Shown: positions 2,940 to 61,753 of the stretch, in pieces
Position numbering within the stretch: the first letter of the stretch is position 1
Layout: each line of letters starts with the position of its first letter
DNA from: Aurantiochytrium sp. KH105
Taxonomy: Eukaryota > Sar > Bigyra > Thraustochytrida > Thraustochytriidae
DNA length: 64,000 nt
Assembly: GCA_003116975.1 (NCBI GenBank)
Contig: BGKB01000062.1
Location: forward strand, 186,001 to 250,000
Direction: 5' to 3'
The notes under the pieces: model-generated
What the model was told of the DNA's origin: nothing
Seen by the model: the letters and a program-made list of their open reading frames with translations, nothing else
The model's database searches: none
Made by a program: the position numbers and the translations under genes

Positions 2940-3944
2940 ATGGGGCTGCGCACGAAGCTGACCGAAGCCCTCGGCATCGAGGCGCCCATTATTCAAGGTG
3001 GTATGCAATACGTGGGGTACGCCGAGATGGCGGCGGCCGTGTCGAACGCCGGCGCCTTGGGCATCATCACGGGCCTAACGCAGCCGACACCAGAGGACCT
3101 GCGCAAGGAGATCCGCAAGTGCCGGAGTCTGACGGACAAGCCCTTTGGCGTGAACATTGCCATTTTGCCCATGCTCATCCCCGCGGACTATGACGCGTAC
3201 GTGCGTGTGATTTGCGAGGAAAAGGTGGCCGCCATCGAGATCACGGGCGGATCACCGCGCAAGTACATGGCCCAGCTGCGCGAGGCTGGCATTGTCGTCA
3301 TCCACAAGTCCGCGACGATCAAGCACGCGCTCAAGGCGCAAAAGGACGGCGTTGACTTCATTGAGATTGCGGGCTTTGAGAGTGCGATTGCTGGTCGCAG
3401 CTCCGAGGACGACGTGACCACCTGGGTTCTTGTCACCAAGGCGCTCGAGGTGCTCGACACGCCGCTCATCGTGTCTGGCTCTGCAACAGGCCGTCAGTTG
3501 GCGGGTGCACTCGCGCTAGGTGCCTCGGGCTTGACCATGGGCACGCGCTTTCTCGCCACCCAGGAGTGTCCTATTCACGAGAATGTGAAGAAGTTTATTG
3601 CAGATCCGGCAAACGATGAGCTTTCCACGACGCTAGTCTTGCGGACGTTGAACAACGCCACTCGCGTGTCCAAGAACACGGTTGCCAAGCAGATCCTTTC
3701 CATCGAGGCAGACGACACGATTGACAACAAGGAGGCATTTAAACTCGCTTCGGGCATGAAGGCAAAGAGCATGTTCAGGGAAACGGGCGATGTCCAGGGC
3801 GCCATGTGGAGCTGTGGCCAAAGTGTTGGGCTCATTAATGATATTCCGACTTGCAAGGAGCTCGTCGACCGCCTGGTGTCGCAAGCCGAGGCGCGACTTC
3901 AGAACGCGTATAGCTTTGTTGTGTCTCCTGGATCCAAGTTGTAA
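2940..3944 (+). CDS. nitronate monooxygenase / 2-nitropropane dioxygenase-family flavoprotein, peroxisomal
   Basis: A 334-residue FMN-dependent TIM-barrel protein close to the class that includes Pseudomonas PA1024-type enzymes (nitronate oxidation or NADH:quinone reduction). Visible motifs are PIIQGGMQYVG (16-26), the phosphate-binding SGSATGRQLAGALALGASG (179-197) followed by MGTRF, and the C-terminal WSCGQSVGLINDIPTC (290-305). The start at 2940 has a good context (ACCATGG); an in-frame ATG 18 codons upstream adds only a polar tail. The protein ends in Ser-Lys-Leu, the canonical PTS1 peroxisomal targeting tripeptide. Relatives in this class have a GFE-x-x-GHPGE segment; here it reads GFESAIAGRSSED (145-157), with no histidine and two extra residues. 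The FMN fold is clear; the substrate is not. Confidence 0.88.
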   Translation: MGLRTKLTEALGIEAPIIQGGMQYVGYAEMAAAVSNAGALGIITGLTQPTPEDLRKEIRKCRSLTDKPFGVNIAILPMLIPADYDAYVRVICEEKVAAIEITGGSPRKYMAQLREAGIVVIHKSATIKHALKAQKDGVDFIEIAGFESAIAGRSSEDDVTTWVLVTKALEVLDTPLIVSGSATGRQLAGALALGASGLTMGTRFLATQECPIHENVKKFIADPANDELSTTLVLRTLNNATRVSKNTVAKQILSIEADDTIDNKEAFKLASGMKAKSMFRETGDVQGAMWSCGQSVGLINDIPTCKELVDRLVSQAEARLQNAYSFVVSPGSKL

Positions 3945-32077: not shown

Positions 32078-33850
32078 TTAGATCCAGTTGGTCTGACCCA
32101 TGAGGCCAACCTCCTTGATGACCCACTTGACCTCGGCGAGCTCCTCGTCGTACTCGAGAGTCAGACCCATGACGTAAAAGACGCCAACAATACGGTCGTC
32201 GCTTCCCTCCACGACCTCACCCTTGAGGTTGTACAGGCAGTCAATCTGCTGGACCATGAACTGAACAAAGATCATGGGACCCATCTTGTCAACCACCTTG
32301 GCGGCGGCAATGTTCATGTCGCCAATAGAAAGGATGTGCTCATCCATCTTGCGGCCATTGCGCACGCGCTCCTGAATGGCGGCCTTGAAGGCGGCTCCGG
32401 CACCCTCCGAGCAGTACGACTCAATGGTGGGAATGTCACCGCGCAAGAAGGCGCTAATCACCGCAGGCACAATGGTGTACTGCATCTCATCCGTAAAGTT
32501 CTCAATGGAGAACTCCGGGTCGAGCTTGCGGAACTCGCGAATGGCCTCGCCCATCTCGGTCTCACCAAAAACCGAGTCGTACGCGGAGTACATACGGTAC
32601 ACCATCGGGTTCTGACTCGTCTCGAGCGTCTCGCGGACGTCCTCGGCGGCGTCGCGGGCCTTTCGTGCGACCTTGGAGTCCGCAATGCCAAGGATGGAGC
32701 GGAAGATGGGGGCCTCGCGCAGCGTCTCGTTGAACTTCTCCCAGGTGCCCTTCTCCTCCTCGACAAAGACCATGGCCGTGGTGTTGGCCTGAGCCGAAAG
32801 CTTTTCGATTTCCTTGCGCATGGCGCGGATCTCCCCGTTGATCTCCTTGAACTTGGCCGTATCCGACTCAGCCATGGCGGCGTCGCGAGCCTCCTCGAGC
32901 TGGCTGATGAGAGCGGACTTCTCCATGATTTGCTTCTCCAAAAACGAGGGCTCGGCCGCCTTGGCCTTGTGCGCCTCGGCGGCGTCGTGGGCTTCGTGCT
33001 CGGGGGCCTTGACGATCTTGGCACCCTCGGGCTTCTCCCACACGGTCTGGCCTTCGTTGTTGTAGTAGTAGGTGTCGCCACTGTCCTTGTCAACAGCCTC
33101 AAACCACTCTGGCTCGGCGTCGGTCGCCTTGGCGCGGGGCTTGCGGCTCTTGACGCCAAAGACGGCCTTGAAGGCCTCGTCCCACGAGCGATCATCGCTG
33201 CCAAAGGACTCGGGCAGCTTGGAGAGGACGGCCTGGCGGCCGGCGCTGAGGCGGCTCGAGATGCCGCTTAGGAGACCACCGCTCGAGCTCGATTGCTGCT
33301 GAGAACCGGCATCAGCACTGGCACCGGCACCGGCATCGGCACCAGCGCCGGCAGCCTTGTCCGCGCCGGCATCAGCAGCGCTAGCGCCGGCGTCGGCCTT
33401 CTTCTTGCCGCTGCCGCCAATGCCAAACTCCTTGCCGAGGTCGCGGAAGAAGTCGCCGACGGTCTCGCCCGCCTCCTTGGCCTTCTCTGCGCCTTCGCTG
33501 ACCTTTTCGCCGCCCTCCTTGATGCGCTGCTTGGCCTCCTCGGAGGCCTTGTCGGCGGTCTTGCCAAAGGACTCGGCGGTCTCCTCGACGGTCTTGTCGC
33601 CCACCTTGGACTGCTTGAGCTCCTCGAGCGACTTCTTCACGTTCGGGTCATTCTCGACCTCCTCGCGGATCCGCGCAAAGAAGCCCTTGTCCGCGTCGCT
33701 CTTCTTCTTGTCGTCGCCGCCGCTGCCGCCGCTGGCCGCAGAGAACCCTCGCGCCCACGGCGTCTGCTGCTGCTGCTGCGCGCCCCAGGCCCTGCGCGCG
33801 CCGCCCCACTGCGCGAGGCCGCGCGCGCCCGCGCCTGCTGCCCTGCGCAT
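32078..33850 (-). CDS. TIM44: mitochondrial import translocase subunit TIM44 with an inserted WW domain
   Basis: A 590-residue protein. Residues 1-38 are an Arg/Ala/Gln-rich presequence. A charged region with the TIM44-typical KGFFARIREEVENDPNVKKSLEELKQSK follows (55-82), then Ala/Asp/Gly-rich linker (150-190). Residues 247-275 form a WW domain: WFEAVDKDSGDTYYYN, then W271 and P274. A coiled coil lies at about 302-352. The C-terminal TIM44 domain (about 360-590) has NPMVYRMYSAYDSVFGETEMG and the LDPEFSIENF segment and ends GQTNWI. TIM44 tethers mtHsp70 to the TIM23 channel on the matrix side. Yeast and human TIM44 are about 430-450 residues with no WW domain. The start is ATG 33848-33850. Confidence 0.93.
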   Translation of the reverse strand: MRRAAGAGARGLAQWGGARRAWGAQQQQQTPWARGFSAASGGSGGDDKKKSDADKGFFARIREEVENDPNVKKSLEELKQSKVGDKTVEETAESFGKTADKASEEAKQRIKEGGEKVSEGAEKAKEAGETVGDFFRDLGKEFGIGGSGKKKADAGASAADAGADKAAGAGADAGAGASADAGSQQQSSSSGGLLSGISSRLSAGRQAVLSKLPESFGSDDRSWDEAFKAVFGVKSRKPRAKATDAEPEWFEAVDKDSGDTYYYNNEGQTVWEKPEGAKIVKAPEHEAHDAAEAHKAKAAEPSFLEKQIMEKSALISQLEEARDAAMAESDTAKFKEINGEIRAMRKEIEKLSAQANTTAMVFVEEEKGTWEKFNETLREAPIFRSILGIADSKVARKARDAAEDVRETLETSQNPMVYRMYSAYDSVFGETEMGEAIREFRKLDPEFSIENFTDEMQYTIVPAVISAFLRGDIPTIESYCSEGAGAAFKAAIQERVRNGRKMDEHILSIGDMNIAAAKVVDKMGPMIFVQFMVQQIDCLYNLKGEVVEGSDDRIVGVFYVMGLTLEYDEELAEVKWVIKEVGLMGQTNWI

Positions 33851-42522: not shown

Positions 42523-44496
42523 TCACGGAGAGACCGCGGCAAGACCCGCAACGCGCGCCTCGTGCTCCTCGCAAAAGACAGCTGCTGCATCCAAAGACCC
42601 CTGGAGTGTACCCTTGAGATCTGCAAACGACTGCGCAACGTTCTCCTTGAATGAGAGAAAGCTGTCCACAGCCATGTGCAAGTCGTCGTCGAGGGCCTCG
42701 ATCTCGGTCATGTGGTCGGTAGCCTCGCTAGCTAGGCGATCGCGAAGAGCCTCGAGAGTCTCTTCCGCCTCCCGCAGCGGCTCCGCAAGCTGTTCCGCAT
42801 CAAGCGTCAGCCGGTGAATGTCCTCCTCGACGGCCTCAGTCTCTGCGGCACGGCTTGCCAACTCAGCGTCCATGGCGGACTTGTCTTGCTGCAGCTGTGT
42901 TTCGGCCTCCTGGAGGCGCTGCTCCAAACCACGAATCACACTGCGCACCGCCTCTTGCGCCTCGTCATTCTCCTCGACCTTGGCGTGCAATTCCATGTTG
43001 CTAGTGCGAATTTGATGCGTCTTCTTGATCGACTCTTCGCGGAGATCCTGCAGGGCAGACGTGATGGCACCCACATCGGCGCGCTCACCCTGCCCGGTCG
43101 CTTGATCCGCACCAAGAGAGACTAGCATGTTACGCCGCGTGTCGAGACGCAACTGGATATCAGCGCCCTGGCGCTGCTGGCCTGCGGCTGCCGCCTGGGT
43201 CAACTTGAGCGACTTGGCGATTGCATTGTATTCCTCGAGGAGCGCCTCGATGCGCTGCGTGCGCTTCGAAATGGACATTTCCACCTCCCATGTTTCATTC
43301 TGCATGTCATCGCGCTGCTCCAGCACCGTGTTGCACGATGCCTCCAGAGACCGCTTCTCTTGTGTCATGCGCTCTGCATCCGCCGGGTTCAACTCCTGCT
43401 CATCGAGGATACTCTGGACCTTGGACTTGGCGTGCTCTGCCTGAGCCAGCTCGACCTCCTTGGCGCGGACCTCGGCCTCGCGCTCCCGCACCTTGGCGAC
43501 CATAATGTCCTTGTTTTCGAGGAATTGGCGAATGAGCTTGTCCCACTTGAGCTTGTCGCTCGTGAAATCGCGTTTGCGCTGCTCCAGCTCTGGGATCAAA
43601 CTCTGTTTCTCCGATTCGAATTCCAGGTCCTGGCCAAGGTCTGAACGCTTCCGCTCCAGATCCGTAATCTCCTCCTCGATGACCACGTCGCGCTCGCGGA
43701 ACTTGCCCGCCAACTCGGCGTCGAGCTCCTCGTAACGGTTATCGTCGCCACACAGAAAGCACTGGTACGCCTTTCGAATGTACGTGAAAAAAATACGGTC
43801 AATGTCCTCCTCCGAGGCATCGTCGTCGTCGTCCTCAGAAAGCCCAGCCAGCTCATCGTACTCGAGCAGTTCCACGAGCCACACGAGCGACGCCAGTAGC
43901 GCAGGCCACGTATGCGGGCTTCCCACAGCAGCAAGCGAGGTCTTGCTAATGTTGAAAGGGTACCTGAGACCCTTCATCATGACGGTCACCTCGTCTGCCA
44001 CCTTGCTGCCGAATTTGCGGCTTGGATCAAGCATACGAAAGAGAAAAATAACCACATGCTCAAAGTCCTTGCCTGTCGGCCGATGCAGGATCTTGGGCGA
44101 GAGCGCCTGGTCGTAGTTGTGCTCCGAAAGAAATCGAATCAGCGTTTCGATGCACTGCGCCCGAAAGCTCTTTTCATTAAGAGGACGCGGGTCGCTCTTG
44201 AGCGCGCTCGTTGCGCTGCCCATGGTGGCGATCGACTTTCTGCGAGACGCCACAGAGACTGTGGACTGACGACGATTGCCCCCATGCATCGACGCGCCTA
44301 CCGTGGGCATCATGGACATACGTTTGTTCGCCTTGGCTTTCTTCGCCGTCGTGCCCATTCCTCCGCCCAGCGAATACCTGGGCAGCGTCGTCCCGGGACC
44401 GAGCGACATGCGCGTTTTCGCCGGCCCACCGGCGCCCATGTTCATGCGCGAGCTCGACACGCGCCCCAGCGCGGGTCTCCGCTGTTGACTCTGCAT
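42523..44496 (-). CDS. NDC80: kinetochore protein NDC80/HEC1
   Basis: A 657-residue protein (human 642). Residues 1-100 are a basic, Ser/Arg-rich tail with repeated RxS/RRxS sites (GRVSSSR, KRMS, RRQS, RRKS) like the Aurora-phosphorylated tail of HEC1. The calponin-homology-like head follows: DPRPLNEKSFRAQCIETLIRFL (about 102-123), LHRPTGKDFEHVVIFLFRMLDP, and the KTSLAAVGSPHTWPALLASLVWLVELLEY segment. These match the microtubule-binding head. From about 255 to 630 the chain is a long coiled coil. NDC80 pairs with NUF2 in the outer kinetochore. The start is ATG 44494-44496. A short insertion of acid residues (SEDDDDDASEED) sits at the end of the head. Confidence 0.96.
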   Translation of the reverse strand: MQSQQRRPALGRVSSSRMNMGAGGPAKTRMSLGPGTTLPRYSLGGGMGTTAKKAKANKRMSMMPTVGASMHGGNRRQSTVSVASRRKSIATMGSATSALKSDPRPLNEKSFRAQCIETLIRFLSEHNYDQALSPKILHRPTGKDFEHVVIFLFRMLDPSRKFGSKVADEVTVMMKGLRYPFNISKTSLAAVGSPHTWPALLASLVWLVELLEYDELAGLSEDDDDDASEEDIDRIFFTYIRKAYQCFLCGDDNRYEELDAELAGKFRERDVVIEEEITDLERKRSDLGQDLEFESEKQSLIPELEQRKRDFTSDKLKWDKLIRQFLENKDIMVAKVREREAEVRAKEVELAQAEHAKSKVQSILDEQELNPADAERMTQEKRSLEASCNTVLEQRDDMQNETWEVEMSISKRTQRIEALLEEYNAIAKSLKLTQAAAAGQQRQGADIQLRLDTRRNMLVSLGADQATGQGERADVGAITSALQDLREESIKKTHQIRTSNMELHAKVEENDEAQEAVRSVIRGLEQRLQEAETQLQQDKSAMDAELASRAAETEAVEEDIHRLTLDAEQLAEPLREAEETLEALRDRLASEATDHMTEIEALDDDLHMAVDSFLSFKENVAQSFADLKGTLQGSLDAAAVFCEEHEARVAGLAAVSP

Positions 44497-45247: not shown

Positions 45248-48200
45248 CTAGCCGCTAACAGCATCGTTCTCAAGGCCGCTCGGAACTGTAGCTGCCAGAG
45301 ATGAGAGATCCTGAATCTGAGGAGCATCACTCGGGCGCGAAAACTTGTGAGCGTCCACAAAGCTTTGCACATCGGCCTGAAGGTCCACGGTCTTAAGGGC
45401 CTCATGCGAGACCTCCGTAAGCTCTTGGAGCTTAGTTTCCAGACGCTTGTGCCAGAATTGAAGTCTCTCATGAAGCGAAATGAGAAAGTTGAACTGGTGC
45501 CGCTCAAGGTTGTCATATTTGCGCATTACGCGTGCGGCCTCGTTGCGATACAGTCGCTGAAAATCAGCATACTTGTCGATTGCGGCCATATTGTTTTCCT
45601 CTGCCTCTCGTAGCTTACGCTTGGCAGCCCCCACCTTGCGTTGCTTTCGATCAGTACCGGCTTCCTGGGTGATGTAATTACGATGGTAATCCTTTTGCTC
45701 GCATTCATCAAGCACTGCGCGAGCCTCAATGACTTTGTCGTTCGCACGCGCAAGCGCGTTGCGGACTACGGCCCCGTTCCGCTTTAGATTCATACGAATG
45801 TCATTGATTTCCTTGAGATACTGCTGGCAGGTGTCCGCCATCTCCCGCAGCGAGTTCATCAAAAGATGATCCGACGCGTCGAGACACTCCATCATTAAGC
45901 CCACCTGAGCTGTCCATGACTTGTGCACATTATCAATTGCCATGAAAAGAGTGCTGACCTCCTTTGTTGGCCCAGACCTGCCATCCGCCACCGAAGCGAC
46001 GACAGACAACGTTCCATCTGTAGTTGCCTCATCGTCATCGTCCGCACCATCGCATGACCCAGCTTGATTGGCCCCACTAGGCAAAGCTTCGGATCTCTCA
46101 CCCAGAATACTCGTCAACGCGGATGCGCCATCAAGGCCAAAAGTGTTAGCGTCCAATTCTGTGACATTGCCTCCGCCCTCTCCGGAGTCTGAACGCGCCT
46201 GCGAAGTGAACGACGCCACGGAAGGAGACGCTGAAGAAACAGACAGCAGAGGTGCCCCAGCGGGTACCTCCGAATGTGCATACGCATTTCCTGACCGATG
46301 CGATGCCCCCGAGCGATGCAAAGATCCTTGCCCCGGGACCAAATGACGGATGCGGTTCCGAAAGTGACGAATCGAATGCCCAGGACGCCGCAAGGAGTCA
46401 AAGCGTGTTGTGCCCGTGGTTGACGTTGACCGCGAGGAGGCGCCCCGCGTGGGCCGATCCATCGAGGCCAGCGACCGTGGCGACCCTGCATCATCGTCAG
46501 CGCCCGTCGTACCATTGTGCAGAGAATCTTCATAGCCGTTCGCTAACTTGCCCTGCGTGCTCGACTGAATTAGCTTGCGCTTCTTCATCAAGTCGCGCTT
46601 GCTCAACAAGAGCACGGGGAAACGGTCAATCTGATCCTGCGCTTGCCCAATCACCGACTTCATCACGGCCAGACGCTCTGGGAGAACTTCCAGCAGGCTC
46701 TCGCAGATAAGTTTCGAGTGCAGAATCACTGTCTCAACTTCGTCGCACCGCACGGGGCGCTCACGTCTGCCTGGCGAGTCGTGCAGGACGGGTCTGCGCA
46801 AAAATGCATGCCGTGACGAGGTAAACATTTTAGAAAGCTGCGCAACAGCACTCGACGGACTCAGCGACTGCTTGATACTGGACGCCATCATTGATGCACC
46901 GCCAAGGGTGCGAAGCGACTCTCGCATACGCCGCTCGTGTCGCGACCCTGAGAACGTCCGCGATGGCGCTGAATCAGTCAGCAGAACCCTCTGGTCATCC
47001 GCTGTCGACGTGCTGCTGTAACTCAGATGCGCGCTGTCCGTGTCACGAGGTAGACGCGACACCGAGTCAAAGAACCCATTCGTGTCCATCGCAGCGAGAT
47101 CGAGAACCGCATCGTTGTCACCCTCCAACACAATAGGCTCCTCGGTCGTGTCCAGAGCACGTGAACGCCGCGACATAAAGGGAGACTTCTTGGCATGACC
47201 CAAGGAAATTTCTTGTACAGACTCCACAAAGGACTGCAGGTACTGCAAACACGACGACAACGCGTCCGTGTACCCATTCTGCATAGAAACTAAAAGCTGT
47301 GAAAAGCACGTTTCGTAAACCTGCCGTGCGCCGATGTAGGCCTTTTCTGTTTCCGACTTGGCCTTTTTCGCCTTCTCGCACTCGTCGCGCAATGCAAACA
47401 GCTTCTCGCATCGTCGTGACTCTTCTGATCGCGAGCGAAATTCAATGCCGCGCATCGATGCCTCGCACTCGTTCATCTCCGCTTCGACACGGGCCAGATT
47501 ATCGCGCGAACTCGTGAATCGATCACGCGCTTGCATCAGGTCTACCTCCGCATTGTCCTTGCTTCTCACGTACTCGAGCAAGTCACCGTTCAATGATCGC
47601 TTGCTCGCACGTGCATCCATGGTCAGGGTACTCAACGCTGCATGTAGTTCAGTCAGCTCCTCCATCTCGTTCGTAATGCTTACAAAAGTCTTGAGGAAGA
47701 GGTCGTCAAATGGATCGGCATCGCGTCGCTGCTCCAAGAGGTTCAGCGGCACATGACCTAACTGAGCACATAGCTTTTCAAGATCGTGTGTCGCACGACG
47801 CTGCGACTTTGCGAGGCCGTCTGTGTGCTTATACAGGGACTTCATGCGATACTTGAGCTCGTTAAATCGTAGCACGAGCGTTCCAAGGCTGCGACGCATG
47901 TAGACTGCAAAGAGACGCCCCTCCAAGCTCACAGAGTCCACAGAGTCAAAACGCCCAGATCGTCGCTGACCATTGGCGTCCAAAACCGGCACCATTGCGT
48001 TTCCTCCTTTGGGCGTTTCTGCGTCACCCTCCGCACCCGGCGTGCCGCTCCCCTCGAGACTCCCTCGGTCCTTGGCCGAGGCGCTCCCCTGCCCGGTACC
48101 GTCCTCGTAATCATCAGTTTCGTCGCCATCGCCCTGTCGCTTTGCTTCGCTGGTGCTATCCTCAGCAGCCTTGGAAGGAATCATACCTGCCATCGAAGGG

Positions 48201-51200
48201 TGACGCGAGAAATGGTCCAATGCATCATCAAGGTATCGCTTGGTGCGTTCGTCGAGGTCCTTGTGTCGACGTAAATCTTCCTGGGGGTCCACCTTGCGAA
48301 CAGCCTCCATCCGATCCGTGATGGCAAGCTTGACAACCTCCCTCTCGGCACGAAGGCTTTCAACAAAGATGTTAAGCTGCCGTACACTCGTTGTCACGCG
48401 ATCGACCTCAAGCGCACAGAACTCTGCATACGCGACTTCCATCCAGCGTCGGTATTCATTCGTAACCACCTGGAGGGCCTTGCGCTTTGCGTCACGGTCA
48501 CTCGACAGTAATGTCTCTTCTTCAGCATAATCTTGCAGCTTCTTGGCCAAACGCTCCTGCTTCTTGTGAGCATGTGCGAGACGGTCGACGTCCGAGCTTT
48601 TCAAAACACGTTTCACGGCGCTCCGCAGACCTCCGCGCTGGTGGTGGGGGGCGTGATCATCCGAAGCCCTGCGGTCGGGCTCACTGCCAACATTCGAAGC
48701 ATCACGGGTTTGGCCACCATCGCCACTTCCAGCACCACTTCCATCAGCAGCAAGAGCAGACGCAGGGGCGCGGGCATCACTGTCGGAAGATGAAGATGAA
48801 GAAGAAGCCGAGAGTGCGCTTTCTTGCGCGCCCAGGACCTGCTCTTGCAGCTCGCGTGCTTCCTGGCCCGCTCGCGCCAAATCTTGCAAGACCCTTTCTT
48901 TGTCCAGACCCTTCGCAGCGAGCTGCTGCTCGGCCTTTTTCACATTCTGCTCGGCGATTAGCTTGCGATTCAACAGTTCCTCGTGCGCGTTGTTCAAATT
49001 CATAGAGCAGGTAATGACGAGACCGCGCAGCTCCTCCGACATGCGCGCGAGCACGCTGTTCATAACATCTGCGTTGTTGGACATGGTGCTTGCCATGATT
49101 GTCATGCACTCTTTGACGCGAACGAGAGCATTCTGCAGCGTACTTAGTTTGCCATCTTTGCGCTGAAAAGCGAGCCCCACCCCCATAGCCTCCACGGTGG
49201 TGTGGACCTTTTCCGCAAGAGTCCGCATGGCCATCGTACGGTAGCTAGCAGAGTCGTGACTTGTTTTGTAAAGTGCTGCAACCCCATTCATCCACTCTTG
49301 CCATTCCGCGAAAACGTCCTCGCGGTCCGTGTCAGTCCCGTGCGGACGCGTACTCATACTGGGAAGTGAATCTCGGAAAGGATATTCGATATCACGCGCA
49401 TTCTCGACGCCCTGCGCGACAATCTCTCCTGGTGTGGGACTTGAGCATGGCGCCGCAGAGGGCGGCGTCGTTGCTTGGCTTCCACTCGGATCAGAGGCGT
49501 CAGTGCTCGGACCTGCCTCGGTACGTGCATGGGACTCAACATCAGAAGTTTCAGAGACATCCTTGTCGGCATTGCTCTTCATTTCCTCTGTTGCATCCGC
49601 ATCGCTGCTGCCCTTGTCCGAACCAGCACTATGCGGTTCGCGTTGTGGCAAAGGCGTACGCCAGATTGGCGACAAAAGTGCCACGTGGAGACTTTCAAAG
49701 GAGTGCTGGCGGTGCATTACCATCCAGCGGTACAGGATATTCATGAGCTCCTTGAGATGGTTCTTTACGTTTTTGATGCGCGTCCGCTCCGTCCGATGAA
49801 AAGTCTGAAGATTCTCAGAATTTGCCTCGGTAAAATTGGTCAGCTCCCGCGTCAATGATGCAACGTCCTGGGCGAACTGGAGCCTTGCAGCTCGCAACGT
49901 GCGCTTTGCAGCGACCTTACGATCGAGCACACGCGCCAGCTCGCTTGTAGACACATGATGGACCCGACTTCCATTCTCGTAACCGCTGCGGCTTGGCGTT
50001 GCACTCGGTGGCGAAGAAAAGCCGCCAAGTCGATCGACCGCGCTGCGGCTCTCGGTGGTAGATGAGTCCGTCACGGCGTCCTCGTTGTCAAGGTCATCGC
50101 GACTCGAATGTGAACTCAAGAGAGTGCGAGAAGATTCAAGCGGGGCAGTAGTCGCTGCGCGGATGCTCGACAGCCCTGGCGTCTCGGATCGACGCCGAAA
50201 CCGCTGTGAGCCAATGGGACGTTTACCCAAAAAGGTCGTTGACGCACGACGCCCGCTACCACGGCCTGATGCCTTCGCGGAAGAGTTGGAGCTTCCACTA
50301 TGACCCGACATGGCAATGTTGAGGCTGACATCATCCGTAAAGATCCCAGACGCGAGCGTCGACTTTACATCAATGGTACCTGAACCACTCCGCCGCGCTT
50401 CAAGTTCGTTGCCAGCGTCATCTTTGGCGAGAGAGCCTCCTTCATCGCCCTCCCCACGCAGAAGGTCAGACGAGCAAACGTCGCCGTTGTTGCTCAAATT
50501 GTCCTCCTCATCGTCAAGAGACCCGGCGTCGTCGACCTGGCCAATGTCCTCGTCATCACACCAATTCCTGTCAAAGAGGTCTCCCGCAGATGCTACCGAA
50601 TGCGAGGAATACATTGAACCTTCCGATCGAGGCACGGTTCGAAGCGATTGCTCCGAGCGCGGGCTTCCCAGCGTTCCAAATCGAGACTGCACTGAGCGGG
50701 GCGAAGCGAGGTCAAAGGTGTCCAGGCCCCCCACCTGGGAGGCAGGTCCGCTGCCAACGCTCGCTGGCGTCTGTCCACTCGTGCTGCTTTCGTGACGCCC
50801 GGGCAATGGGCCCAGGGGGGAGGCACCCGCGGACGCATCGGCCGAGCTTCCGAACCCCGGGCGCCGAATCTTACTTCTCCTCGACTTGCGCTGCGCGGGT
50901 GTGGCACTTCGAAAATACTTTTGCAAAGCAAAGGCTTGCTGCGTGCGGCTCGTCTCAAGTCTCTGGCGCTGTAGCTGCGCCTGCATCTCCACAAAGATCT
51001 TTTCAATGTGCGCAAACTCGTTCATAGCAATCTCCTTGCGCTTCTTGGATTGCTCCATGGCCGTCTTTCGCGTGGTGATGTTGCTCATGTGTTTCTCCTC
51101 GGATGAAGTAAGGATATCGTACGCATTGCGAAGCTTCCGAATTACTTCCTTGAGCTTGCTGCTAAGCTTTTCCGACAGCTCCTTGGCCATGTCCCTGCAG

Positions 51201-54200
51201 AGCTTCACCTGTCGCTCGGCCTCTTGCTGGACAGCAGACCACACAGACCCTCGCATGTATGGATTTGGCTCAAAATTTGGATTGAGAACGCGTGTACGTG
51301 GTTTGTTCTCCTGATCACGAAATGCTTTGTCCATGGTAGATGCGTACTCTTCAAGATGCCGAATGACACCCTCAATCACACCATGCAGCTGGCGTACATC
51401 CTCCAGGCCGGCCAAGGCGTAGCGCTTGACCAGACTGAAGCGTGCACGAAAGAGACGCTGCTTAGTAAAAAAGGAGAGATTTACACTCTCGAGAACATGA
51501 GAGACCTTGTCGACGTTTCGAAGAAGGTGCGAACCGCGGCGGGCTCGAATGAGACTCGGGACAGCTCGCGGCTCCGGAAGCGCGTTCCAATGCAGGGGGT
51601 CGGGAAAGGCGCGCGAGTTCATCCGGAAGAGTCCAGCACCCAAGTATTCAGCCGCAGCGGGAGGGGCTACGTCATAATTCGATCGATCGGCTTGCGAAGT
51701 ATCGTCGAGGAAGGAAGCTTTGATGGTGTGTTGGCGACTGGAGTCTGTTGATGAGCTCATGTCCCCGTTCAACGTTGCATTGACCATCACAGAGGGTGGC
51801 GGTGTGGTTCGTGCCTCTTTGACGAGATCGATCCAGGCGTCAAAGAGCATGATTTCAAAGTTGTGTTCGGCCGCAAAGACGCGCGAATCGAAAAAGGTTT
51901 GCATCATTTGCGTGGAAATGAAATCGTTCAGGAACTCGCGACTTGTTGCGGTGTCCTTGTGGTCGCGCAAGAATGCCTCGCGATCAATGAGCTCATCGCC
52001 ATCCTCCTCAAGCCCCCCCATGTACCATCGGTAATCGCCAATCAGAGTGACAAAGAATTCGACAAAAATTCTGCGCACCGTGTTGTTGAACTCCTCAGTC
52101 GAGGCGTCCGCAATAGGAGCGAGCTTCGCCGTTGGTTCCTCCTCGAGAAAGTCGGTCACAATCCGATGGGAGGCTGCCATTTCCAGCTCGCCACCCGGGC
52201 CGCTTGACAGCGCGCTCGAGTCCGAGTAGCGCTGTGGCCTCCGCCGGCGACTGTTGCGTCGCTCGCGAATACTTGCGGCCCCCAGCGACTCGCGCTTTTG
52301 CTTTTCGATGGGTCGATCCGCACCACTTTTCACATAGACGTAATCGCGAAGTGGGTACCACAATTTTTGCTTCAGGATGCGAGGAGGCATGAGGGGCAGC
52401 TCACGATCCGATGGAAGCTCCACAATATTTTCGTCAAGATCGACAAAAACGAGCGCGCTGTACGAGTTGCGATCTCGCGGAAGCTGAGAACGATGCATAC
52501 CAATAAGAATAGGCACGGGCGAATCAAGGAGGCCGGTCATGGAACTTGGGAGGACAGGAATGATGTTGCTTTGCCACTTCAGGGGCCATAAAAGCGCCAA
52601 AAGACCAGAGATGGCATTGGACAGCAGATCGAGCCGGCTTGTCACCAGCAAAATGGGAAACTCGAGAATAAGGGCAGAAAACAGGTTGAGCAGGTTCTGT
52701 GCGCCCAAACTCTCAAACAGAGGACGGAGCGGCACGTTGAGAAGCGGCAGGCGATTCAATGGCGGCTTTGAGCAGGTGAAGTAATAAGGCATATCGTCGT
52801 GTAGTTTGAAGCGAACGCGGTACTTGCCTGGCGGCGGTTCCGGCACCTCGAGAAGCACATGCTGGAGACACCGTTCGAGAGGCACAGGAAGAGCATCTTT
52901 TTCGCGAACGATGCGCAATATTTCGCGAAGAATCGCACCATAGAGCGTGTAAAATGGAAAAGGCGACACTAACGCGAGAGTCTTGGGCTCGTAAGGGTCC
53001 CACCGGGAGAGAGTTTCTGCAGAATAATCCGCAAACGTTTCCTTGAGCGTCTGTACTGCAGCGAGACGAATCTCTCGGCAGTACTGGACCGCGAGGTCTT
53101 CTCCTTGCAAGGCGTCATCCAAATGATTTACAATGTCTTCCGTCACAGCTGTTGGCGGTGATGCAGGTGGTGCAGAACCAGGCGTAACGGTTGCCTTTTC
53201 GTCCATGGGCGACTGAAGAGGCGTTGCAAAGAGATGCTCGTTGGGACTGTGCTCTCCATTTAAGATACCAGTATCTTCCCCCTCCCCCTCCTCCTCCCCC
53301 CTGTCCTCCTCCTCGCTGCTAATTGCGCCAATCGACGCACCATCGTCGTTGTCATCGCCGCCGCCGCCCCCGCCGCCGCCAAGCTCGGTTCTCTTTTTCG
53401 CGCTATGGAAGCGAGCCTCTTCGAGAGAAACGAGGCTTGGCAGCGAGTCGGAGTCAGCGTCCAAGTCTGCTCCCGCATCCTCCTTGACGTCAGCCGTCTT
53501 GTTATGATCGTCGCTGGCCTTGAGAGTTCCCGTGACCTCCAGTTCGTTGCCTTTACCCTCGGCAGCAAGGTCCTCGGCAGCAAGGTCCTCGGCAGCAGCA
53601 TGGTCTTCGGCCTCGAGAACTTCTGCAAGCGCTGCTCGCTCATCTGCCTCCTTGCGCACGCGAATTGTTTCCGCGAGTGATGCCACGTACTCTTCTTCCA
53701 TGAGATTCTCCATGGGGCCACGGTAATGCAGGAGATAGCCATCGAGCAGAGTGTTGAAGCGCGATTGGTTTTCCGGTTGGTCGGCAGCGTCTCCAAGCTC
53801 GCGCTGAATGCTGTCAAACTGCTGACAAAATTTGAACCAAACCATCTCGTCCTCTGTCGCGCAGCGTTTGGCAAGGTACTCGGAAAAGGAGCGTGTGATC
53901 CAATCGCTTCGCGCGCGATCTCGTTTGAGAACCTGGTCCAGGGAAATGTCTACAAATCGGGCCCGAATTTTGTCAGGAATTGGGTCGTAGAATGCAAGGC
54001 AAGTTCCGTGCGTCATCTGGTGCATCTCGTTTGTGATGAGAAACGAGTAGTCTTGCACGCGGCCGAGGTCAGCATCGTGGGCTCCGCCCTGACGTATAGA
54101 CATTCCAATGGGGTGACAAAACTGACAAAGCGACGGATTGAGAGGTAGATCGGCGTAGTTTTCGGCGGGGAAGCGATCCTTGATGACGCCAGGCAAATCT

Positions 54201-55588
54201 ACACAGAAACTCGGGTCCAGAAGATCGAGTTTTGCGATTGGGCCCTCGGCCAAGGCACGTCGCCAGTCGACACCAGTGGCCGCAAAGTATGTTGCGACAG
54301 TAGGCGGCCGTTTTCGTGCCATCGTCTTGGCAGTGCTCTTCACAGTGGGCGAGGAGAACATTGCGTTTTGCGCAGCTGCGTGGTTCATCTGGGATGCCGC
54401 CCCAGCGGCGCCTGGGCCGCTGAACCCCGGTCGTTGTCCGAAGCGCTCGGGCCTTGCGTACGAGTTCGCACGCGGGCTGACGCCGCCGTCGGCCCCTCGC
54501 ATGTTAGCCCGAAACTCTGGATCAGTAGTATCGAGTGCCATAAGCCGGAGAGAAGGCGCGGCAGCCGCGGCATTTGCAATAATTTCTGCCTCTTGAGCAG
54601 CGGCCTCTGCGTCATCATCATCATCATCGTCATCATTATTGATATCGGCCCGATCATCATTTTGTTGATCAAAATGACGGATATCATCTCGTTGCTCATG
54701 GTTTGTGCCATTGGGGAAAAACTCGTTCGAGGCGCTTGGCAGACGTACTCTTTGGTCAGTGTCCACGTTCCCGCTGCCAGCGTCGCCATGCACAAAGGTC
54801 GTCTGCATTTCGAACTCTACGCCAAGCGACCCGATTCCATTTTCGTTGTGATCAAAAGGCGGGGACGCTGCTGAGGACGGCGAAAAGAGATCCTCACTGT
54901 CATCATCATCGCTGCAATCGTCATCGTCGTTTGCATCGCCATGGCTGTGCAGATCGTTGCGAAGGTGGTCGTCCGGGCCCACTTCCTCGCTTTGACCAAA
55001 CTCGTCCACGTCCTTGTAGGACGAAGAGTCTCCCTCACGCGACAGTTCTGTAGCGATGAAATCGCCTATGATGCGGCGGCGGCTGCCGCTGCCGCCGCTA
55101 CCCTGTTTCACCTCATGGTGCGAGTCTCTGTCCTGCTGGCTCTCTTCGTCAGAGGCAGCCTCGGACTCTGAGCTTGTTTCGCTGAGATTGGCGATCATTT
55201 CCTCGGCTAGGTTGTCGGTCGTGGCTGCAAGTTGTTCAAACTCTTGCAGCTCACGTTGCATTCGTCTATGCGACCCGTTACCCATGGGCGCATCTAGTTC
55301 TATTCCGTCGCCGTTTAATAGAACCACGTCGTGGCTATGAATGTCTTTTTCGCCGCTGTCATTTTTGTTGTCGACATCGGTCGCGGCTGCGCTAAATTGA
55401 CTGCCTTTCCTCGCCTGGGTCATCTGGCGATTGGAGACTCCTTGTCTTGCTTGCACGAGATCGTCTTCGTTGCTGTCTTCGCTGTCGTCGATGTCATCAG
55501 GATGCAATGTTCGCGTGGATTGGATGTTTTCGCGCCGAATGAGAAACTGGTCCTGGGAAGCCGTTTTGTCATGTTGTTCAGTGTCCAT
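45248..55588 (-). CDS. giant DENN-domain protein with multiple F-BAR/BAR-like helical modules (about 3,446 residues)
   Basis: One uninterrupted frame of 10.3 kb. ATG 55586-55588 gives MDTEQHDKTASQDQF; the frame is open 19 codons farther without an ATG. The first 440 residues are acidic and disordered. A tripartite DENN module follows: uDENN about 449-540 (VIKDRFPAENY, LCQFCHPIG, YSFLITNE, GTCLAFYDP), core DENN about 870-1075 (PFPFYTLYGAILREI, LFSALILEFPILLVTSRLDLLSNAI, LVFVDLDENIVELP) and dDENN about 1160-1250. DENN modules are guanine-exchange factors for Rabs. Long helical modules then occur at about 1360-1555 with 1884-1963, at 2096-2450, 2563-2800 and 3209-3413, parted by Ser-rich linkers. 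Several read like F-BAR helices (for example EYRRWMEVAYAEFCALEVDRVTTSVRQL). F-BAR domains bend membranes. DENN is firm; the BAR identity is inference. Confidence 0.85.
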   Translation of the reverse strand: MDTEQHDKTASQDQFLIRRENIQSTRTLHPDDIDDSEDSNEDDLVQARQGVSNRQMTQARKGSQFSAAATDVDNKNDSGEKDIHSHDVVLLNGDGIELDAPMGNGSHRRMQRELQEFEQLAATTDNLAEEMIANLSETSSESEAASDEESQQDRDSHHEVKQGSGGSGSRRRIIGDFIATELSREGDSSSYKDVDEFGQSEEVGPDDHLRNDLHSHGDANDDDDCSDDDDSEDLFSPSSAASPPFDHNENGIGSLGVEFEMQTTFVHGDAGSGNVDTDQRVRLPSASNEFFPNGTNHEQRDDIRHFDQQNDDRADINNDDDDDDDDAEAAAQEAEIIANAAAAAPSLRLMALDTTDPEFRANMRGADGGVSPRANSYARPERFGQRPGFSGPGAAGAASQMNHAAAQNAMFSSPTVKSTAKTMARKRPPTVATYFAATGVDWRRALAEGPIAKLDLLDPSFCVDLPGVIKDRFPAENYADLPLNPSLCQFCHPIGMSIRQGGAHDADLGRVQDYSFLITNEMHQMTHGTCLAFYDPIPDKIRARFVDISLDQVLKRDRARSDWITRSFSEYLAKRCATEDEMVWFKFCQQFDSIQRELGDAADQPENQSRFNTLLDGYLLHYRGPMENLMEEEYVASLAETIRVRKEADERAALAEVLEAEDHAAAEDLAAEDLAAEGKGNELEVTGTLKASDDHNKTADVKEDAGADLDADSDSLPSLVSLEEARFHSAKKRTELGGGGGGGGDDNDDGASIGAISSEEEDRGEEEGEGEDTGILNGEHSPNEHLFATPLQSPMDEKATVTPGSAPPASPPTAVTEDIVNHLDDALQGEDLAVQYCREIRLAAVQTLKETFADYSAETLSRWDPYEPKTLALVSPFPFYTLYGAILREILRIVREKDALPVPLERCLQHVLLEVPEPPPGKYRVRFKLHDDMPYYFTCSKPPLNRLPLLNVPLRPLFESLGAQNLLNLFSALILEFPILLVTSRLDLLSNAISGLLALLWPLKWQSNIIPVLPSSMTGLLDSPVPILIGMHRSQLPRDRNSYSALVFVDLDENIVELPSDRELPLMPPRILKQKLWYPLRDYVYVKSGADRPIEKQKRESLGAASIRERRNSRRRRPQRYSDSSALSSGPGGELEMAASHRIVTDFLEEEPTAKLAPIADASTEEFNNTVRRIFVEFFVTLIGDYRWYMGGLEEDGDELIDREAFLRDHKDTATSREFLNDFISTQMMQTFFDSRVFAAEHNFEIMLFDAWIDLVKEARTTPPPSVMVNATLNGDMSSSTDSSRQHTIKASFLDDTSQADRSNYDVAPPAAAEYLGAGLFRMNSRAFPDPLHWNALPEPRAVPSLIRARRGSHLLRNVDKVSHVLESVNLSFFTKQRLFRARFSLVKRYALAGLEDVRQLHGVIEGVIRHLEEYASTMDKAFRDQENKPRTRVLNPNFEPNPYMRGSVWSAVQQEAERQVKLCRDMAKELSEKLSSKLKEVIRKLRNAYDILTSSEEKHMSNITTRKTAMEQSKKRKEIAMNEFAHIEKIFVEMQAQLQRQRLETSRTQQAFALQKYFRSATPAQRKSRRSKIRRPGFGSSADASAGASPLGPLPGRHESSTSGQTPASVGSGPASQVGGLDTFDLASPRSVQSRFGTLGSPRSEQSLRTVPRSEGSMYSSHSVASAGDLFDRNWCDDEDIGQVDDAGSLDDEEDNLSNNGDVCSSDLLRGEGDEGGSLAKDDAGNELEARRSGSGTIDVKSTLASGIFTDDVSLNIAMSGHSGSSNSSAKASGRGSGRRASTTFLGKRPIGSQRFRRRSETPGLSSIRAATTAPLESSRTLLSSHSSRDDLDNEDAVTDSSTTESRSAVDRLGGFSSPPSATPSRSGYENGSRVHHVSTSELARVLDRKVAAKRTLRAARLQFAQDVASLTRELTNFTEANSENLQTFHRTERTRIKNVKNHLKELMNILYRWMVMHRQHSFESLHVALLSPIWRTPLPQREPHSAGSDKGSSDADATEEMKSNADKDVSETSDVESHARTEAGPSTDASDPSGSQATTPPSAAPCSSPTPGEIVAQGVENARDIEYPFRDSLPSMSTRPHGTDTDREDVFAEWQEWMNGVAALYKTSHDSASYRTMAMRTLAEKVHTTVEAMGVGLAFQRKDGKLSTLQNALVRVKECMTIMASTMSNNADVMNSVLARMSEELRGLVITCSMNLNNAHEELLNRKLIAEQNVKKAEQQLAAKGLDKERVLQDLARAGQEARELQEQVLGAQESALSASSSSSSSDSDARAPASALAADGSGAGSGDGGQTRDASNVGSEPDRRASDDHAPHHQRGGLRSAVKRVLKSSDVDRLAHAHKKQERLAKKLQDYAEEETLLSSDRDAKRKALQVVTNEYRRWMEVAYAEFCALEVDRVTTSVRQLNIFVESLRAEREVVKLAITDRMEAVRKVDPQEDLRRHKDLDERTKRYLDDALDHFSRHPSMAGMIPSKAAEDSTSEAKRQGDGDETDDYEDGTGQGSASAKDRGSLEGSGTPGAEGDAETPKGGNAMVPVLDANGQRRSGRFDSVDSVSLEGRLFAVYMRRSLGTLVLRFNELKYRMKSLYKHTDGLAKSQRRATHDLEKLCAQLGHVPLNLLEQRRDADPFDDLFLKTFVSITNEMEELTELHAALSTLTMDARASKRSLNGDLLEYVRSKDNAEVDLMQARDRFTSSRDNLARVEAEMNECEASMRGIEFRSRSEESRRCEKLFALRDECEKAKKAKSETEKAYIGARQVYETCFSQLLVSMQNGYTDALSSCLQYLQSFVESVQEISLGHAKKSPFMSRRSRALDTTEEPIVLEGDNDAVLDLAAMDTNGFFDSVSRLPRDTDSAHLSYSSTSTADDQRVLLTDSAPSRTFSGSRHERRMRESLRTLGGASMMASSIKQSLSPSSAVAQLSKMFTSSRHAFLRRPVLHDSPGRRERPVRCDEVETVILHSKLICESLLEVLPERLAVMKSVIGQAQDQIDRFPVLLLSKRDLMKKRKLIQSSTQGKLANGYEDSLHNGTTGADDDAGSPRSLASMDRPTRGASSRSTSTTGTTRFDSLRRPGHSIRHFRNRIRHLVPGQGSLHRSGASHRSGNAYAHSEVPAGAPLLSVSSASPSVASFTSQARSDSGEGGGNVTELDANTFGLDGASALTSILGERSEALPSGANQAGSCDGADDDDEATTDGTLSVVASVADGRSGPTKEVSTLFMAIDNVHKSWTAQVGLMMECLDASDHLLMNSLREMADTCQQYLKEINDIRMNLKRNGAVVRNALARANDKVIEARAVLDECEQKDYHRNYITQEAGTDRKQRKVGAAKRKLREAEENNMAAIDKYADFQRLYRNEAARVMRKYDNLERHQFNFLISLHERLQFWHKRLETKLQELTEVSHEALKTVDLQADVQSFVDAHKFSRPSDAPQIQDLSSLAATVPSGLENDAVSG

Positions 55589-60879: not shown

Positions 60880-61753
60880 TCGATGTCGGCAGATTGATAA
60901 AATGCAAGTGCAATGTGATGGAGAAACACAATCTCCGAGTCTACCAATTTGAAATGAGCTGCTACGTAACTCGAACGGAACAATAATAACAAGTACAGGA
61001 TCAATTGTTGTCATCTTTGAATTTTGAAAGCGACGGCATGTAGGCCGGGCAAGTGAATCTTTTAGGAGGGGGAAGAAAAACAGATGTCGCGGTTGTGCTT
61101 GCATCGCACATTGCTTACGCCGTCAATGACTTCAAACTTAGGGTGCTGAGGTTGGTCATCCTTCGTGGATCTCTTGGACCTCACTTCCGTCACGATGTTC
61201 GGAAACGTGCTCACATTTTTGTTTTTATAAATGGCGGTATCAGGTTATCAAAGAAAACCTTGAGTGATCCTGAACCACTGCCGCCGCGCAATTGCGAAGA
61301 GTACCCTGAGGGCGATAAAAAGGAAGTCTTACCTCACCAACTTAACGTTTGAGAGATATTGAGCCCTGTGGGGTATAAAATGTAAGCTATCTTGTCTTGA
61401 GACTTTTTGAAAAGACTCTCCAGCATCCCTATTTTCGCCCGCCGCCGCCGCCCGCAACCACCGTCGCTGAAGCGAAAAGTCGCTCCAAGTTTCAAGATGT
61501 TTGTTTGAAATTAGAACGAAAACGAGAGCAAGGAGACAGCGAAAAAGAGGAGGAAAAATGAGGTAAAAGAGTTGGAGACAATCCGAGTTTTCCCTGTCGA
61601 GTCCACCATTCCTTCGATTCAATGATAAGATGATCGATCGATCCACGCGTCGGACAGCTAAAACGAGTGTCCGAGTTGCAGCACCGATCTTTAAAAAAAG
61701 GAAAAAGAACGCGTGCTTTTTTCTCTCTTTCCGCACAGACCCAATTGCGTGGT
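60880..61753. other. intergenic between convergent genes
   Basis: About 870 bp, the shared 3' flank of the DUF707 gene (+) and exportin-7 (-). AT-rich parts alternate with CGCCGCC near 61440. Nothing coding or repetitive of note. Confidence 0.55.

Follow-up and report, generated by a model that had tools for sequence, protein, structure and literature searches.

The window analyzed here, a 64,000-nucleotide stretch of the Aurantiochytrium sp. KH105 genome (contig BGKB01000062.1, positions 186,001 to 250,000), contains on its minus strand a gene whose predicted protein joins a DENN Rab guanine nucleotide exchange factor (GEF) module to four long helical modules. The last of these is very probably an F-BAR domain, and it is reasonably likely that a single protein couples the DENN module to the helical C-terminal modules and would so hold it on curved membrane. 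The initial annotation of this DNA had described a Rab-GEF joined to several F-BAR/BAR modules. The DENN module and at least one F-BAR, module 4, stood up to our analyses; that there are several such modules is likely, module 1 being borderline, module 3 matching BAR below the cut-off and module 2 failing the F-BAR profile.

Translation of positions 45248-55588 of the window (minus strand) was free of stops and gave 3,446 residues, starting at the first ATG of the open frame. Pfam profile searches placed uDENN, core DENN and dDENN in that order within residues 468-1250, the arrangement of a DENN Rab-GEF by sequence, with dDENN under the curated cut-off. The intronless 10.3-kb frame and the three DENN parts within the first 1,250 residues, both proposed initially, were thus borne out. 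The frame and its DENN parts are:

45248..55588, minus strand: single open frame for DENN and four helical modules, 3,446 residues; the second copy of the gene keeps the frame
53990..54187, minus strand: uDENN, residues 468-533 (Pfam PF03456, E 9.5e-9)
52427..52990, minus strand: core DENN, residues 867-1054 (Pfam PF02141, E 4.8e-38; also found in the genome-wide search; DENND1A/1B in the PDB)
51839..51985, minus strand: dDENN, residues 1202-1250 (Pfam PF03455, E 6.7e-5, 23.3 bits, below the cut-off of 26.8; co-linear weak DENND1A segment, 4.0 bits)

The PDB matches of the DENN part were DENND1A and DENND1B only, among matches with E up to 1 and, in a second search, with E up to 0.001. A second copy of the gene, on contig C52, is open over the whole frame and differs in 301 of 3,429 codon pairs, with Ks 0.087, Ka 0.015 and Ka/Ks 0.17. 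The 17 gap columns between the copies represent five events, every one within linkers, and seven helical stretches had Ka/Ks values of 0 to 0.20. As the frame is open in both copies and Ka/Ks between them is low, we argue for one translated protein. A tripartite DENN module and a conserved single frame in a protein of 3,446 residues are, at the level of sequence, established. One frame is no proof of one messenger RNA, and the locus could in principle yield two genes or products, a DENN protein and a separate F-BAR protein. We consider this most improbable, given that 10.3 kb have stayed open in a single frame in two copies with 301 differing codons, and that Ka/Ks was 0.13 in residues 1261-1344, which lie between dDENN and module 1.

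Beyond the DENN part, long helical blocks alternate with low-complexity stretches and form four modules (residues 1345-1985, 2080-2462, 2545-2815 and 2940-3425). The positions first given for four or five helical blocks were correct, and the count is four, not five. F-BAR likeness was scored with a profile built from eight PDB chains (8-sequence profile), with the same profile enlarged by two F-BARs of the KH105 genome (10-sequence profile) and with an 11-sequence profile; the HMMER filters were off when blocks were scored with the 10-sequence profile. Controls included shuffles that preserve the hydrophobic and charge pattern (class shuffles). Over the PDB, the 8-sequence profile listed 41 sequences, 31 of them F-BARs at 33.1 bits or more and 10 others at 18.6 bits or less. 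The 10-sequence profile, run over 177,635 PDB sequences with E up to 10, listed 45, namely 31 F-BARs at 30.3 bits or more, the lowest being srGAP2, and 14 others at 15.7 bits or less. The false positives of these profiles were topped by myosin and SipB coiled coils. The two parts of module 4 are:

46559..46771, minus strand: module 4, presumed alpha2, residues 2940-3010 (the hhalign alignment of the entire module extends to template position 23; 0.7 bits alone)
45314..45991, minus strand: module 4, probable F-BAR alpha3-alpha5, residues 3200-3425 (32.5 bits, E 5.7e-7 at PDB size; two-way pairing with an F-BAR-SH3-SH3 protein of the same genome)

With the 10-sequence profile, the 32.5 bits of module 4 were twice the score of the best non-F-BAR PDB chain listed (15.7) and above that of srGAP2, and the module topped all 400 class shuffles. 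With the 8-sequence profile it scored 20.3 bits, compared with 18.6 for the best non-F-BAR and 33.1 for the lowest F-BAR listed. The hhalign comparison gave a probability of 90.5% (E 1.4e-6), and a profile of the two KH105 F-BARs alone recovered module 4 only.

Searches within the genome led to the same family from both directions. Residues 2060-3425 found six matches: the gene itself and its other copy, then frames on contigs C14 (E 0.009) and C76 (E 0.013), and finally two copies of another frame (E 0.09 and 0.85). The C14 match covers 178 residues within a frame of 923 and is aligned to residues 3248-3418, and C76 carries its other copy; their protein is an F-BAR-SH3-SH3 protein, with 95 and 93 bits in the 8-sequence profile and two SH3 domains in Pfam. 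In the reverse search, the C14 F-BAR found itself and its copy, a second F-BAR-SH3 gene (contigs C87 and C30; E 8e-19), then the module 4 copies (E 0.0027 and 0.0059), followed by frames on C189 and C29 (E 0.008 and 0.04). Within the module, YDNLERHQ keeps only the E of the alpha4 signature Q..E..R, and VDLQADV reproduces the VD...D tail at the spacing seen in the genome's own F-BARs.

Helix-pattern convergence would be another source of F-BAR likeness, in which case the C-terminal half would lack a BAR fold and be an extended coiled-coil scaffold of the SH3BP5, golgin or myosin kind. Such a scaffold would be in keeping with a golgin peptide as the sole phmmer match of module 4 in the PDB (E 1.5), with the myosin and SipB coiled coils that lead the false positives, and with the 22 of 1,000 class shuffles that reach module 4 in the 8-sequence profile. 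A precedent is SH3BP5, a Rab11 GEF described in the available text of PMC6138693 as a coiled coil that was once wrongly predicted to be F-BAR-like. It resembles the KH105 protein in being a long helical protein in Rab activation and differs in that the GEF activity resides in the coiled coil (same text); it cautions against assigning BAR domains on helix pattern alone. The score of module 4 against the best decoy (32.5 and 15.7 bits, 10-sequence profile), its best non-self genome match being an F-BAR-SH3-SH3 protein and a score below 0 bits for its reversed sequence make a scaffold of this kind very improbable, and we favor an F-BAR for module 4.

The other three modules are less clear. Their parts are:

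50921..51556, minus strand: module 1, presumed F-BAR alpha1-alpha3, residues 1345-1556 (12.5 bits alone, 14.0 with alpha4; helices of 23, 56 and 119 residues in a low-confidence model)
49634..49975, minus strand: module 1, presumed F-BAR alpha4, residues 1872-1985 (16.0 bits; E..R of the alpha4 signature; no amino-acid changes between copies)
48821..49351, minus strand: module 2, presumed alpha2-alpha3, residues 2080-2256 (weak, 1.6 bits; hhalign beats 25 of 30 class shuffles for the part alone)
48203..48616, minus strand: module 2, presumed alpha4-alpha5, residues 2325-2462 (post hoc motif; none of 30 class shuffles reaches the hhalign score; profile 2.7 bits)
47144..47956, minus strand: module 3, BAR-like three-helix block, residues 2545-2815 (Pfam BAR E 7.1e-4, below cut-off; helices of 65, 88 and 85 residues)

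In the 10-sequence profile, the alpha4 part of module 1 scored 16.0 bits and the whole module 14.0, beside 15.7 for the best decoy; hhalign gave 41% (E 2.8e-4), and a Pfam ATG17_like row covered residues 1345-1560 (E 0.0014, 18.6 bits with a cut-off of 43). Module 2 as a whole scored -4.1 bits in that profile, a value that does not exceed those of non-F-BAR chains; with hhalign the whole module beat 30 of 30 class shuffles, but with P only 0.022. Modules 2 and 4 share a 47-residue alpha4-alpha5 motif, [LI]E..[RHQ]-35 residues-[VI][DE]...D[ILV], which was written after it had been sighted in these two modules and which recurs with equal spacing in the proteins of C14, C87 and C189. No further match was found in a six-frame control set of 233,945 residues, which holds overlapping loci.

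Module 3 scored 9.8 bits in the 8-sequence and 5.5 bits in the 10-sequence F-BAR profile, in neither case above the non-F-BAR chains. Its match was to helix 3 of Pfam BAR (PF03114; 19.7 bits, E 7.1e-4), under the cut-off of 28.5, and it appears to resemble BAR more than F-BAR. A search of the genome with PF03114 found 11 places: eight belonging to four BAR genes, one on contig C249 (E 0.04) and the two module 3 copies (E 0.20 and 0.24). Ten controls (one reversed and six shuffled versions of module 3, three shuffled versions of part of module 1) gave no BAR or ATG17 match, the best E being 0.0046. Taken as sequence comparisons, these results support, but do not show, an F-BAR in module 1 and a relationship of modules 2 and 3 to BAR/F-BAR domains. 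That the chain has two or more BAR-superfamily modules seems to us a good expectation; that all four belong to the superfamily is somewhat doubtful.

A number of results weigh against F-BAR or BAR assignments along the chain. Class shuffles reached the scores of modules 1 to 4 in 102, 620, 36 and 22 of 1,000 cases with the 8-sequence profile and in 6, 240, 75 and 1 of 400 with the 11-sequence profile; with the 10-sequence profile, modules 1 to 3 were reached in 8, 318 and 51 of 400. Their hhalign scores were reached by 2, 0, 2 and 0 of 30 shuffles. Since shuffles attain these scores, helix pattern accounts for much of what is detected in modules 1-3. When the whole protein was run against the 10-sequence profile, the module 4 stretch alone was significant. 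No pairwise similarity was detectable among the four modules, the alpha4-alpha5 motif was missing from all five PDB F-BARs examined for it, and phmmer searches of the PDB with residues 1345-1560 and 3200-3425 had no F-BAR among their matches. The Pfam rows of every block likewise lacked an FCH/F-BAR family. This last silence is to be expected, since neither of the two F-BAR-SH3 proteins of the genome (C14 and C87) had an F-BAR family over the Pfam threshold. Similarly, a search of the whole genome (76 Mb, 367 contigs) with Pfam FCH (PF00611) found no match, a negative that carries no weight because those two F-BAR-SH3 genes exist. Pfam models evidently miss F-BAR domains in this genome.

These results would also suit a protein whose sole F-BAR is module 4, forming a dimer at the C-terminus. 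In such a protein, blocks 1-3 would be unrelated antiparallel coiled coils that space the DENN part from this dimer. Module 1 stands out weakly from the pattern-preserving shuffles and modules 2 and 3 not at all, the modules lack similarity to each other, and the Pfam BAR value of module 3 (E 7e-4) is modestly below the best of the ten controls (E 0.0046). Several observations speak against such spacers. Module 1 comes close to or passes the best non-F-BAR PDB chain listed (16.0 bits for alpha4 and 14.0 for the whole, against 15.7), module 3 ranks in the genome right behind the real BAR genes and C249, and the alpha4-alpha5 motif of module 2 is spaced as in the F-BARs encoded elsewhere in the genome. 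In addition, the whole-protein run gave six stretches that all fell within the four modules and kept the profile order inside each (module 1, 0.6 and 8.1 bits; module 2, -3.4 and -1.6; module 3, 0.7; module 4, 25.1). Based on these findings, we regard spacers in blocks 1-3 as unlikely, and further BAR-superfamily modules upstream of module 4 as likely.

Monomers of modules 1 and 3 were modeled with AlphaFold without an alignment. The module 1 model had helices of 23, 56, 119, 79 and 13 residues (mean pLDDT 50.9), and that of module 3 had helices of 65, 88 and 85 residues and two short ones of 6 and 4 (mean pLDDT 52.6). A spectrin-like repeat has three helices of about 30 residues; the long helices of the two low-confidence models, by comparison, span 56-119 residues. 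Both helix plans may fit BAR/F-BAR, at the low confidence of the models. In module 1, a gap of about 330 disordered residues had been noted between the presumed helices 2 and 3 of the block. The gap was confirmed, with 315 residues by composition and 319 helix-free residues before the 79-residue helix in the model; F-BAR numbering places it between alpha3 and alpha4, the counterparts of the second and third helices in a three-helix BAR. Foldseek searches with these low-confidence monomer models found nothing significant, a further point against BAR folds in the two modules. For module 1 the ACAP4 BAR came first (E 0.35, among the best 50 of 315 rows), and for module 3 six of 30 rows, with FCHO2 accounting for three, were BAR or F-BAR chains, all with E above 4. 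The rows of VIA-align included BAR chains and one plectin spectrin-repeat chain; they lay within the helical-bundle background, and for this reason nothing was drawn from them.

By composition, three of the four blocks (modules 1, 2 and 4) contain inserts, which measure 315, 68 and 189 residues and divide each block in two:

49976..50920, minus strand: module 1 insert, residues 1557-1871 (Ka/Ks 0.14)
48617..48820, minus strand: module 2 insert, residues 2257-2324 (composition and copy comparison)
45992..46558, minus strand: module 4 insert, residues 3011-3199 (Ka/Ks 0.11)
46337..46390, minus strand: basic amphipathic segment RRPGHSIRHFRNRIRHLV, residues 3067-3084, within the module 4 insert (hydrophobic moment 0.54, charge +6)

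Between the two gene copies the inserts carry 18 amino-acid and 43 silent changes. Seven other regions outside DENN and the modules carry 59 and 57 (p 0.007 against the inserts), and the four linkers that lie beyond residue 1260 carry 12 and 18 (p 0.35); the regions compared were of our own choosing. From these values, constraint on the inserts exceeds that on the N-terminal part and on the linker between uDENN and DENN, without a demonstrated difference from the linkers between modules. As a lead only, the amphipathic segment of the module 4 insert might bind membrane, forming a membrane-inserting or regulated tip.

GTPase regulators that share a chain with a BAR module are known in Tuba/DNMBP, ACAP/ASAP, oligophrenin and srGAP; to our knowledge, these act on Rho or Arf GTPases, not Rab, and have one BAR-type module each. 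DENND1/connecdenn proteins share the tripartite DENN module and are the sole PDB matches of the KH105 protein. Their tails carry clathrin-, AP-2- and SH3-binding motifs, and we know of no BAR module in their chain. The F-BAR-SH3 proteins (syndapin, Cdc15/Imp2, CIP4/FBP17 and the KH105 proteins of C14 and C87) have F-BAR alpha3-alpha5 as in module 4, and the VD...D tail is common to C14, C87 and module 4. They differ from the DENN protein in having a single F-BAR and no GEF, with SH3 domains in C14 and C87, and their aligned F-BARs have no long insert.

The closest precedent is yeast Vrl1 of the VINE complex, in which, according to the available text of PMC9507130, one chain holds a VPS9 Rab-GEF domain together with a predicted PX-BAR, and endosomal tubules are where the complex is found; its authors discuss GEF activity wired to a BAR coat. 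As described there, Vrl1 differs from the KH105 protein in having VPS9 rather than DENN, one PX-BAR (residues 737-1089) rather than an F-BAR, and an obligate partner, Vin1. In the literature searched, in part only, we found no DENN protein with a BAR-type module and no protein with several BAR modules, and the word BAR is absent from the main text of a survey of DENN proteins (PMC3521125), as far as that text was available. The initial statement that DENN and several BAR-type modules are not known from any one described protein therefore holds within this literature, but a Rab-GEF and a BAR module do occur in one chain in Vrl1 (PMC9507130, available text). As GTPase regulators with one BAR module are already known, the KH105 protein would be, as far as the literature was searched, a new combination of known families.

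By analogy with Vrl1, we propose that F-BAR binding would place DENN exchange activity on curved membrane. The F-BAR/BAR part most likely dimerizes and would bind anionic, gently curved membrane; once bound, it would hold the DENN module at the curved site, and a Rab could be activated and retained where curvature exists. The GEF activity, the Rab and the organelle are inferred here. The ectoplasmic net or the cleavage furrow of a labyrinthulomycete, suggested initially, might be the site. For the related Aurantiochytrium limacinum, the available text of a proteomics study (PMC12221091) lists a candidate ectoplasmic-net protein, A42866, with weak HHpred similarity to BAR. If the proposal is correct, a single molecule would hard-wire Rab activation to membrane curvature, and it could be tested whether curvature alone places and times a DENN exchange factor. 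Should the other modules hold too, F-BAR modules would occur in series within one chain. In the most far-reaching version, all four blocks would be F-BAR/BAR modules paired in-chain as two pseudo-dimers. A single polypeptide would then amount to a section of F-BAR coat, assembled in advance through covalent tethers and equipped with its own Rab-GEF, and the long inserts at the module tips, one of them with the basic amphipathic segment, would be membrane-inserting or regulatory and not spacers; we think this a distinctly improbable arrangement.

The searches also pointed to other BAR-like frames in the genome. The C189 frame (L046, 1644-3845; other copy on C29, L047) has 733 residues and an F-BAR-like helical block that scored 15.1 bits in the 10-sequence profile, a value reached by none of 300 class shuffles. 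Beyond this block it matches Pfam SBF2 (PF12335), a combination unfamiliar to us. The C249 match (60898-61248; Pfam BAR, E 0.04, below threshold) lies in an 840-residue frame, a further candidate BAR gene.

For other DENN genes, 24 frames of at least 300 residues in partial loci were scored. Among the best 15 of the 24, the top two (5.1 and 4.1 bits) were DENN stretches of the present gene itself and the others were below 0. A scan of viral contigs with core DENN found no relative. A frame of 3,330 residues on contig C28 (98156-108145; L011/L012) matches core DENN weakly (E 5.8e-4) and, judged by eye, has a PH-like C-terminal stretch. A DENN frame on C78 (73000-78500; L050) has an N-terminal part resembling, again by eye, MABP repeats, presumably as in DENND4/Crag.

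Just downstream of the DENN frame, positions 42526-44496 of the window (minus strand) encode an NDC80/HEC kinetochore protein (E 1.3e-42), and positions 32081-33850 (minus strand) a Tim44-like protein with a WW domain. Most matches of the family and protein searches in the 76-Mb assembly were paired on different contigs. The Ks of 0.087 between the copies seems high for alleles, so KH105 may be a hybrid strain or a very heterozygous one. Lastly, two acyl-carrier domains lie 102 residues apart on contig C290 (41877-42380) and one lies at the very start of C61 (104-304), as if a synthase with tandem acyl carrier protein domains had broken the assembly. We presume that these domains would fit a thraustochytrid polyunsaturated fatty acid synthase, which is no proof of one.

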